Shown here: positions 24,265 to 27,716 of the stretch, in pieces
Numbering within the stretch: the first letter of the stretch is position 1
Layout: every line of letters begins with the position of its first letter
Assembly (NCBI GenBank): GCA_017643165.1
Contig: JAEPNY010000003.1
Coordinates: 1-64,000, forward strand
Source: Psychroserpens sp.
GTDB taxonomy: Bacteria > Bacteroidota > Bacteroidia > Flavobacteriales > Flavobacteriaceae
DNA: 64,000 nt
Direction of reading: 5' to 3'
Notes under the pieces: generated by a model
Databases searched by the model: none
What the model was told of the DNA's origin: nothing
Seen by the model: the letters and a program-made list of their open reading frames with translations, nothing else
Translations under genes and position numbers: made by a program

Positions 24265-24615
24265 CTATTCGTCTTTATCTAAATTCTTGGTTAAAGTGAA
24301 GCCAGCAAAAAGACCAATACCTGCCATTAAGAATATTGTTCCAGGAAATGCTACTTCTTGGTCAACACCCAGGTTGTAATGTAATATTGATGCGATGAAA
24401 ATACCAATACCTATGCCCATTAAAAGTAATGCGACATTTAGAATAAGTACCTTCCAAATAGGAGCTGCATGGCGTCTACCTTTTACGAATATAGTTGCGT
24501 CCGCACCTTTTTCAATAAGTGCAAGACGTTCTTTATTACGCGTTGAAAAATACAAATAGAATAACCCAAAGATGGTTCCGAAGATAATTGGTATAATGAT
24601 TAATTCTGATCCCAT
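24265..24615 (-). CDS. small three-span membrane protein (DUF6249-like)
   Basis: 116 residues with hydrophobic segments near 4-24, 50-75 and 85-105. The ending of the first loop (TRNKERLALIEKGADATIF) resembles the DUF6249 family, often encoded next to ECF sigma genes in Bacteroidota. It is divergent from the sigma gene at 24756. Its upstream region holds TGTAACC-N16-CGTC on its own strand, the same promoter as the sigma gene, so it is probably a direct target of that sigma factor. Function unknown. Confidence 0.72.
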   Translation of the reverse strand: MGSELIIIPIIFGTIFGLFYLYFSTRNKERLALIEKGADATIFVKGRRHAAPIWKVLILNVALLLMGIGIGIFIASILHYNLGVDQEVAFPGTIFLMAGIGLFAGFTLTKNLDKDE

Positions 24616-24661: not shown

Positions 24662-24688
24662 GACGACAATTGTTTTAATTCGGTTACA
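24662..24688 (-). promoter_or_regulatory. ECF-type promoter, leftward
   Basis: Read on the minus strand: TGTAACC (24688-24682), exactly 16 bp, then CGTC (24665-24662). AAC in -35 and CGTC in -10 is the general ECF-sigma pattern. It drives the small membrane-protein gene starting at 24615. Confidence 0.65.
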
Positions 24689-24718
24689 ACTTTTTATAAA
24701 AATTTTTTCCGATCTTAT

Positions 24719-24745
24719 TGTAACCTGTTTAATATAAAGATCGTC
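24719..24745 (+). promoter_or_regulatory. ECF-type promoter, rightward
   Basis: TGTAACC (24719-24725), exactly 16 bp, then CGTC (24742-24745), the same boxes and spacing as the leftward promoter 30 bp away. The sigma-gene ATG is 10 bases after CGTC, so the mRNA would be nearly leaderless. Confidence 0.65.
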
Positions 24746-24755
24746 TTACCATAAA

Positions 24756-25346
24756 ATGACCACCAACAACGATCAAATACTCATCAATCAAATCAAACAT
24801 GGCGATACAAATGCCTTTGGGCAGCTTGTGGATCGATATAAGGACTTGGTTTATACATTAGCGATACGCATGCTGAAGAATAGAGAAGAGGCAGAAGAGG
24901 TTTCGCAGGACACGTTCATTAAAACCTATAAATCATTAGATCGGTTTAAAGGAGATTCGAAGTTTTCGACATGGATATATAGAGTGGCTTATAATACGTG
25001 TTTGGATCGAATAAAAAAAAATAGAAAACACTTGAATGATGTTGCGATTAATGAGGTTACAACTCATCAAGTACAAACTATAGATAATGCTTTAGATAAA
25101 TTAGAGGCTGAAGAAAGAAAAGAAGCAATTAAACATTGCATTGATAAACTTTCAAGTGAGGATAGCTTTTTGTTAACTTTATATTATTATGAAGACTTAT
25201 CTTTAGATGAAATTTCAGAGATCGTAGGAATGACATCTAATGCCATTAAAGTAAAACTGTTTCGATGCCGAAAGAAATTAGCAACGATTTTGACCTCGCA
25301 TTTGGAACCAGAAATAATTGAATATTATGGAAGAGAACGTAAATAG
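24756..25346 (+). CDS. RNA polymerase sigma factor, ECF type
   Basis: Extracytoplasmic-function sigma factor of 196 aa. Region 2 (about residues 24-90: DLVYTLAIRMLKNREEAEEVSQDTFIKTYKSLDRFKG and the -10-recognition block FSTWIYRVAYNTCLDRIKK) and region 4 (about 130-180: LTLYYYEDLSLDEISEIVGMTSNAIKVKLFRCRKKL) are both intact. Its own promoter and that of the divergent gene carry identical ECF boxes, pointing to autoregulation. The stop lies inside the next gene (20-base overlap), which encodes a membrane protein probably controlling it. Confidence 0.92.
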   Translation: MTTNNDQILINQIKHGDTNAFGQLVDRYKDLVYTLAIRMLKNREEAEEVSQDTFIKTYKSLDRFKGDSKFSTWIYRVAYNTCLDRIKKNRKHLNDVAINEVTTHQVQTIDNALDKLEAEERKEAIKHCIDKLSSEDSFLLTLYYYEDLSLDEISEIVGMTSNAIKVKLFRCRKKLATILTSHLEPEIIEYYGRERK

Positions 25347-25746
25347 TCACTTAGAAGAGCTCACCAAAAAGGTGATGACAACGCCAGACTTAGAATCACC
25401 TTCGTTTGATTTTAAGTCGTCTGTAATGACTGAAATCAATACTATTGAGCAATCTAGTGTTACAACTTATGAGCCATTAATATCAATTCGAGCGTGGGTT
25501 TTTATTGGGTTGGCCTTAATAGCTCTAGTGTTTTATTTTGTATTTGGTGATATAACGGTTACTACTGGTTGGTTGAGTAAGATTGGCATTGAACGTTTCT
25601 ATAGTTTTGAAATATCTAGTCCGATAACAAATCTAAATGTGTCTTCAACCTTAGTATACGCCATCGTATTCTTTGGTATAATGTTGGCGATTCAGATTCC
25701 GTTGTTAAAACGTTACTTCGATCAACGTATAAGCGTTAGTTCTTAA
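25327..25746 (+). CDS. two-span membrane protein, candidate anti-sigma factor
   Basis: 139 residues from the ATG at 25327 (an in-frame TTG lies at 25318). The N-terminal 55 residues are soluble and mixed-charge, followed by membrane segments near 57-75 and 105-128. This layout, the overlap with the sigma gene and the shared transcript suggest a membrane anti-sigma factor, but no zinc-binding HxxxCxxC motif is present and the sequence matches no family I can name. The 3' end overlaps the converging membrane-protein gene by 11 bases. Confidence 0.7.
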   Translation: MEENVNSHLEELTKKVMTTPDLESPSFDFKSSVMTEINTIEQSSVTTYEPLISIRAWVFIGLALIALVFYFVFGDITVTTGWLSKIGIERFYSFEISSPITNLNVSSTLVYAIVFFGIMLAIQIPLLKRYFDQRISVSS

Positions 25747-27112: not shown

Positions 27113-27138
27113 TGAAACCCTCGAATATTTTTTTCGTT
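27113..27138 (+). promoter_or_regulatory. candidate ECF-type promoter of the second sigma gene
   Basis: TGAAAC (27113-27118), 16-bp spacer, CGTT (27135-27138), close to the general ECF pattern. A housekeeping -7 box TATTTTTG (27141-27148) overlaps just downstream without a well-spaced -33, so which is used is open. Confidence 0.4.
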
Positions 27139-27167: not shown

Positions 27168-27716
27168 ATGTCTAATACACATTCCATTTTAATAGAAAGA
27201 TGTCGAAAAGGAGATGAAAAAGCCATGATGCGCATATACGATTTATATTGTCAAGGAATGTTTCAAGTGGCCTGTAGATATTTAAATGATGAAGATGCCA
27301 AAGATGCAATCCAAGATAGTTTTTTAAAGGCGTTTACAAAACTAGAGTTCTATACAGAACAATTTAGTTTTGGGTCTTGGTTAAAACGTATTGTGATTAA
27401 TCAATGTATTGATGCGCTTAAAAAGAATAAGGTCGAATTTATTGAATCCTCTCAGGTTCAATTAACCACCTTAACCGATCTAGATGACTGGATGTTTGAA
27501 TCATCAATTACCAAAGCACAGATCATTGAAGTGATAGATCAATTACCGTTGAAATTCCAAGTAGTCGTCAAATTATATTTAATAGAAGGATTTGACCATG
27601 AAGAAATTGCAAGTATTCTCAACATTCCCGTAAAAACATCACGAACTCATTTGTTTAGAGGAAAAAAAATATTACGCGAACAACTTAAACCATTTTACGA
27701 TGAAGCAAGATATTAG
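27168..27716 (+). CDS. RNA polymerase sigma factor, ECF type (second)
   Basis: 182 aa with region 2 (AMMRIYDLYCQGMFQVACRYLNDEDAKDAIQDSFLKAF, then FGSWLKRIVINQCIDALKK) and region 4 (LPLKFQVVVKLYLIEGFDHEEIASILNIPVKTSRTHLFRGKKIL). It belongs to the same broad ECF group as the factor at 24756 but is clearly a different protein. Its last 17 bases overlap the next gene, and that one overlaps the third, so the three form a coupled operon. Confidence 0.92.
   Translation: MSNTHSILIERCRKGDEKAMMRIYDLYCQGMFQVACRYLNDEDAKDAIQDSFLKAFTKLEFYTEQFSFGSWLKRIVINQCIDALKKNKVEFIESSQVQLTTLTDLDDWMFESSITKAQIIEVIDQLPLKFQVVVKLYLIEGFDHEEIASILNIPVKTSRTHLFRGKKILREQLKPFYDEARY

Follow-up and report, generated by a model that had tools for sequence, protein, structure and literature searches.

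ECF sigma factors that control their own expression and are encoded together with an anti-sigma factor are a known kind of system. Promoters of the SigW/SigM type carry AAC and CGT boxes with an N16 spacer. The locus of Psychroserpens sp. analysed here resembles these systems in its probably autoregulated sigma gene, its putative downstream membrane anti-sigma factor and its AAC/CGT N16 promoter, and differs from them in that its sigma factor falls below the SigW cut-off, its anti-sigma factor has no recognisable anti-sigma domain and no wider strict regulon was found. A closer match in the -35 region is the motif proposed for ECF16, tGTAACc-N16-CGAA, from the ecfF-osrA system of Bradyrhizobium japonicum (PMC3420878). 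There too, in the available part of that paper, the sigma factor has the promoter in front of its own operon, and the -35 box and the spacer agree with ours. However, the -10 box is CGAA in ECF16 and CGTC or nGTC here (a comparison of promoter motifs, not of proteins), so the present sites do not match the ECF16 motif, and the same text lists seven candidate transcription units for EcfF. In Flavobacterium psychrophilum, the SM6 motif likewise has an ECF-type CGT -10 box, the element on which this comparison rests (PMC9723704). The SM6 selection listed in the accessible text includes one ECF/anti-sigma pair, but the motif is also found upstream of T9SS, Band-7 and other genes. In Bacteroides thetaiotaomicron, the available portion of one study states that no motif of this kind was known at the time for the alternative ECF factors (PMC7366714). 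Finally, the ECF sigma gene sigJ of Streptomyces coelicolor is named as leaderless in the accessible part of one article (PMC3160421), whose reference list, by the title of one entry, places the sigJ promoter under another sigma factor; here, in contrast, a short leader is predicted to come from the factor's own promoter and to recur across the phylum. In the listed titles, opening parts of abstracts and text portions that were compared, our literature search found no description of this promoter pair or system; one listed Brucella paper, outside this comparison, contains TGTAACC.

The window, that is, the whole stretch of 64,000 nucleotides that was analysed (contig JAEPNY010000003.1, positions 1 to 64,000), contains a gene gap from which, very probably, two diverging promoters are read by the adjacent ECF sigma factor, with a sigma mRNA that is predicted to be nearly leaderless. 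The locus is organised as follows:

24265 to 24615, minus strand: gene for a DUF6249 small membrane protein (PF19762), 116 aa, three predicted spans
24662 to 24688, minus strand: predicted promoter of the divergent DUF6249 gene, with the same boxes and spacer length as the plus-strand promoter
24689 to 24718, no strand: A/T-rich 30-bp stretch between both -35 boxes, read from the sequence
24719 to 24745, plus strand: predicted promoter of the sigma/anti-sigma operon, -35 TGTAACC, 16-nt spacer, -10 CGTC
24751 to 24755, plus strand: zone where transcription of the sigma operon is predicted to start, from two published yardsticks
24756 to 25346, plus strand: gene for an ECF sigma factor, 196 aa, with regions 2 and 4 (Pfam, NCBIfam) and CA-rich codons 2-5
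25327 to 25746, plus strand: gene for a putative anti-sigma factor, 139 aa, two predicted spans (sequence, hydrophobic peaks)

A first-pass annotation of the window had described TGTAACC-N16-CGTC on both strands, and the sequence contains both sites exactly: TGTAACCTGTTTAATATAAAGATCGTC at 24719-24745 on the plus strand, which indeed ends 10 nt before the sigma ATG at 24756, and TGTAACCGAATTAAAACAATTGTCGTC at 24688-24662 on the minus strand, 46 nt before the DUF6249 ATG at 24615. The two promoters have identical boxes and an identical spacer length (16) with different spacer sequences. The genome-wide search that the annotation had proposed returns just this pair, since the 3,142,098-base assembly holds 2 exact matches, back to back in one gene gap and 30 bp apart. 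This number is by itself not unusual, as the reversed-pattern control also gives 2 matches in the genome, and with up to two mismatches the window contains 8 matches against a shuffle mean of 7.49, which is the chance level. The pair goes beyond chance because its members are co-located and both are retained in relatives, not because of their count; by rough arithmetic, rather than a computed test, a coincidence of the sole exact matches in one gap would occur about 1 in 10^4 times, and we take the co-location not to be chance. It is tempting to speculate that the stretch at 24689-24718 is a contact shared by the two promoters from upstream.

The gene downstream of the plus-strand promoter encodes a protein of the size (about 200 aa) and composition of an ECF factor, with region 2 (PF04542, E 3.6e-20) and region 4 (r4_2, PF08281, E 5e-13) both over the Pfam cut-off. 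Among the best 25 of its 106 NCBIfam matches, the superfamily model TIGR02937 is the sole one over cut-off, and the best scorer, the SigW equivalog model, reaches 142.6 bits against the 209 demanded. The divergent gene belongs to the DUF6249 family (PF19762, 52.1 bits, cut-off 33), and its product has hydrophobic peaks at residues 5-23, 56-74 and 88-106. The predicted model of this protein (mean pLDDT 77.7) found no PDB match at E≤0.001 in a fold search, the best having E 1.8, and the sole match in a literature search for DUF6249 concerned bean kinases.

Directly 3' of the sigma gene, and overlapping it by 20 nt, starts a membrane protein gene, the arrangement expected of an autoregulated sigma/anti-sigma operon. 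The window protein has two hydrophobic peaks, and it has neither a Pfam match nor a recognisable anti-sigma domain. Its homologues are 129-143 aa long, begin within the sigma gene in 73 of the 80 named loci and retain the motif PSxDF..VM in the cytoplasmic part (alignment A2, 41 sequences). When the A2 members were scanned with profiles, RseA_N appeared in 2 of 41 (best E 0.044) and zf-HC2 was absent among the best 25 of 47 families, while 5 of 10 phylum relatives picked for scanning exceed the zf-HC2 cut-off. The predicted model places two helices before the first span, with a mean pLDDT of 66.3 that makes it too poor to use. Class I anti-sigma factors are defined by a bundle of helices 1-3 together with a helix 4, of the zf-HC2 or RseA_N type. 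In class I proteins, helix 4 is the part assigned to sigma-2 binding in the text available (PMC7406223), and we infer that the window protein is a shortened class I anti-sigma factor that retains the helix-4 part. The helix 1-3 bundle seems to have been lost near Flavobacteriaceae, and several distant relatives retain a zinc-type domain.

The comparison with close relatives used the best 80 of at least 377 confirmed relatives. Their titles are mostly those of Flavobacteriaceae genera, three being 'Bacteroidia bacterium' MAGs, and two of the loci (L069 and L077) have identical upstream DNA, which leaves 79 distinct loci. A sigma-side motif, defined as TG[TA]AAC-N16-18-GTC ending no more than 40 nt from the ATG, is found in all 79 (shuffle mean 0.03, reversed control 0), in every case as TGTAACC with 18 nt from AAC to GTC. 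The base 5' of GTC is C in 74 loci and A in 5; a stricter scan that requires CGT misses the motif in 5 of the 80 loci, by exclusion the five AGTC cases. The distance from GTC to the ATG is 9 nt in 21 loci, 10 in 35, 11 in 20, 12 in 2 and 13 in 1. The divergent DUF6249 gene is found in 77 of the 79 loci, and all 77 carry the motif with CGTC (shuffle mean 0.1), 33-64 nt from the DUF6249 ATG; the two remaining loci are L035, which is cut by the contig end, and L087, which has no match in the 4-kb flank.

The two genes also come and go together in the genus. Among 23 congeners, the sigma gene (E≤1e-30) and the DUF6249 gene (E≤0.001) occur together in 20 and are jointly absent from the other three (G006, G015 and G017), and by our own reading of the matches the exact motif precedes both genes in all 20 carriers. 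In one congener (G022) the genes stand apart, with sigma on contig C56 and DUF6249 on C67, each behind its own promoter; the sigma gene there has TGTAACC-N16-CGTC 10 nt 5' of its ATG, and neither of the two 3-kb loci contains a second motif. At the C56 locus (L182), a short tandem repeat of the CTACAAT type lies just upstream of the sigma promoter, where DUF6249 is missing, and may mark the rearrangement point. The genes are on different contigs in G009 as well, where the contigs end between the promoters, probably at an assembly break. Two congeners, G004 (locus L030) and G007 (L031), have a second sigma gene, 38-39% identical, next to a further DUF6249-like gene; TGTAACC...CGTC is present on the sigma side, and we read the arrangement as a duplicated or related circuit.

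Since the two heptamers, GGTTACA...TGTAACC, form an inverted repeat within one gene gap, they could in principle be the palindromic operator of a dimeric regulator and not paired -35 boxes. We regard this as highly improbable and reject it because the gap between the arms varies, the -35 boxes lying 19 to 514 bp apart in relatives, and because single arms stand alone before each gene in G022. Moreover, GTC follows AAC after 18 nt in 79 of 79 sigma-side and 77 of 77 DUF6249-side loci of the close relatives. The separate motifs of G022 indicate that each box pair travels with its gene, which speaks against one operator common to both.

A different question is which factor reads these promoters. 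The genome carries 21 Sigma70_r2 matches, and ECF regulons may overlap in F. psychrophilum, according to the accessible text of PMC9723704; the promoters could thus be real while mostly serving a different ECF sigma factor, with the adjacent one as a target and not the master. One other ECF gene of the genome, L156 (G000:C3:262103-262128), would fit such a scheme with TGTAAC-N17-GTC upstream, 3 nt 5' of its assigned ATG, a start that is uncertain; this may reflect cross-recognition or a related autopromoter. Against this reading, the sigma and DUF6249 genes share their presence or absence across the genus, the motif pair goes with them, and the strict motif lies within 300 nt upstream of just 1 of the 20 other Sigma70_r2 genes, several of which have uncertain start codons. 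We therefore consider control by another factor unlikely. The first-pass annotation had predicted that the sigma factor drives both its own cassette and the membrane protein; that both genes have ECF-type promoters is supported by sequence comparison, and their reading by the adjacent sigma factor is the most likely explanation because of the conservation, the co-occurrence and the separated genes in G022. A second ECF gene, 2.4 kb away at 27168-27716, has TGAAACC-N15-CGTT at 27113-27138 on the plus strand, 29 nt 5' of its ATG, possibly its own, different autopromoter.

Beyond the family, PF19762 was found in 62 of 198 Bacteroidota genomes, at 66 places, of which 64 loci were analysed, the remaining two being the copy in the window and an additional copy within one of these loci. 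An open reading frame resembling an ECF gene is divergent from DUF6249 in 50 of these loci, on the same strand in 8 and not found in 6. The sigma-side motif occurs in 40 of the 50 divergent loci (shuffle mean 0.05, reversed control 0), a count of related loci that, like those of the close relatives, are not independent. Eleven of the 50 come from the window's own family, and outside it the motif is present in 29 of 39. The DUF6249-side motif was counted, without a shuffle control, in 36 of the 50 and is missing in 14, and an open reading frame with a hydrophobic span follows the sigma gene in 45. The 10 loci without a sigma-side motif include two with near copies (L206 and L225) and two GC-rich ones without anything similar (L191 and L202). 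In the 40 motif loci, the -35 box is TGTAAC in 34 and TGAAAC in 6, GTC ends 9-13 nt from the assigned sigma ATG in 34, and the base 5' of GTC is A in 17, C in 13, T in 8 and G in 2. Because this base varies across the phylum, the deep consensus, as read from these alignments, is TGTAACC-N16-nGTC, with CGTC usual just in and near Flavobacteriaceae. The initial proposal of AAC and CGTC as the general ECF pattern was thus right in seeing ECF-type promoters, whereas the deep -10 core is GTC, narrower than had been claimed.

The same annotation had expected its consensus to open a wider regulon, and the counts do not support this. TGTAACC-N16-CGTC has 64 matches in the 23 genomes by our own tally, 42 at the pair and 22 elsewhere; the 42 include two from G012, where identical sites at both ends of one contig (C1:11-104 and C1:3084458-3084551) were counted as a duplicate and probably reflect an untrimmed circular chromosome. 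The 22 exact sites away from the pair show no excess over the 47 of the reversed control. In the window's own genome, TGTAAC-N18-GTC has 15 matches against 19 for the reversed control, and GTAAC-N16-18-CGTC has 37 against 57 (compared by count), again no excess. The 13 TGTAAC-N18-GTC sites besides the pair include none in gene gaps: 12 fall within unannotated open frames of 80 aa or more, some of them antisense, and the remaining one is inside a tRNA-His gene. Because these sites sit outside gene gaps, the strict-consensus regulon appears to comprise, within such gaps, the two promoters alone; further targets may have weaker boxes, different spacer lengths or promoters inside genes.

The short distance between the sigma promoter and its gene has a further consequence, as a -10 box 10 nt from the ATG predicts an mRNA with almost no leader. 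Two published yardsticks, each taken from the available part of its source, locate the start. Aligning GTC with the -10 numbering of Mycobacterium tuberculosis (Mtb) sigma-H, G-11 T-10 T-9 (PMC6411747), sets +1 at 24754 and leaves a leader of 2 nt; the ecfF start, which maps 6 bp beyond the -10 box (PMC3420878), would place the start at 24751 with a leader of 5 nt. Together they predict leaders of 1-6 nt for the 76 of 79 loci with a distance of 9-11 nt, although 5-6 nt, as one yardstick gives, is short yet not strictly leaderless. A distance of about 10 nt between -10 box and start codon marks leaderless genes, and it is 10 nt in the window and 9-13 nt in 79 of 79 relatives. While the 10-nt distance had been seen before, the predicted near-leaderless sigma mRNA is a new element. 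In 72 of 79 loci, no further in-frame ATG, GTG or TTG comes before codon 14; in 5 the next one is codon 13 and in 2 codon 4.

The first codons are also biased. Codons 2-5 are 81% A+C in the 79 loci; ACC makes up 69% of 124 Thr codons there against 24% of 831 elsewhere, and AAC 92% of 65 Asn codons against 23% of 936, biases whose P-values are inflated by the relatedness of the loci. We read this as either a DNA-level constraint or shared ancestry. According to the accessible part of PMC9031893, translation is enhanced by CA repeats that follow the start codon, in leaderless and leadered mRNAs alike. Nearly leaderless messages would be uncommon in this phylum, where the portions of the sources available report 5.5% leaderless mRNAs in F. 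psychrophilum (PMC9723704), about 3.7% of 5' UTRs under 10 nt in B. thetaiotaomicron (PMC7366714) and, in Flavobacterium johnsoniae, predicted leaders of which 87% exceed 10 nt (PMC6847099).

Basal expression requires some source, and the promoters might belong to the adjacent sigma factor while most of its mRNA comes from elsewhere with an ordinary leader. A TAnnTTTG on the plus strand within 140 nt in 6 of 79 loci, and an in-frame upstream start codon within 60 nt in 14 of 79, would agree with this; however, TAnnTTTG is missing within 140 nt in the other 73 and in the window gap, and the short GTC-ATG distance is retained across the phylum. On balance we find it rather doubtful that most sigma mRNA has an ordinary leader, and favour the nearly leaderless transcript.

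We propose that the anti-sigma factor, anchored in the membrane and expressed from the sigma operon, would keep the sigma factor inactive until a membrane or envelope signal frees it. The freed factor would bind TGTAACC and, 16-17 nt on, (n)GTC on both strands, activating its own gene and that of its inhibitor, a positive loop with a built-in brake, as well as the DUF6249 membrane protein, a conserved output or feedback part. The sigma mRNA would start about 1-6 nt before its start codon and probably be translated as a leaderless-like message, and the DUF6249 message would have a leader of about 40 nt. One could go further and speculate that this is a closed switch of ancient origin that spans the Bacteroidota, that it has no strong targets besides its own promoter and that of DUF6249, that its (nearly) leaderless sigma mRNA lets the loop run when ordinary translation initiation is impaired, and that the membrane protein, rather than a battery of genes, is its whole output; we put forward this extended version tentatively, as a possibility somewhat on the improbable side.

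The consensus TGTAACC-N16-nGTC is now linked to a likely sigma factor, its inhibitor and a target, and it is widespread enough to be taken up in tractable Bacteroidota species. If the sigma message starts (nearly) leaderless, it would be an inherent and conserved example within a phylum for which leaderless mRNAs are described as rare, and there would be a testable reason for it, namely a loop that is independent of normal initiation. Our results also indicate DUF6249, a family of small membrane proteins, as the component that provides the output of, or feedback to, a stress circuit.
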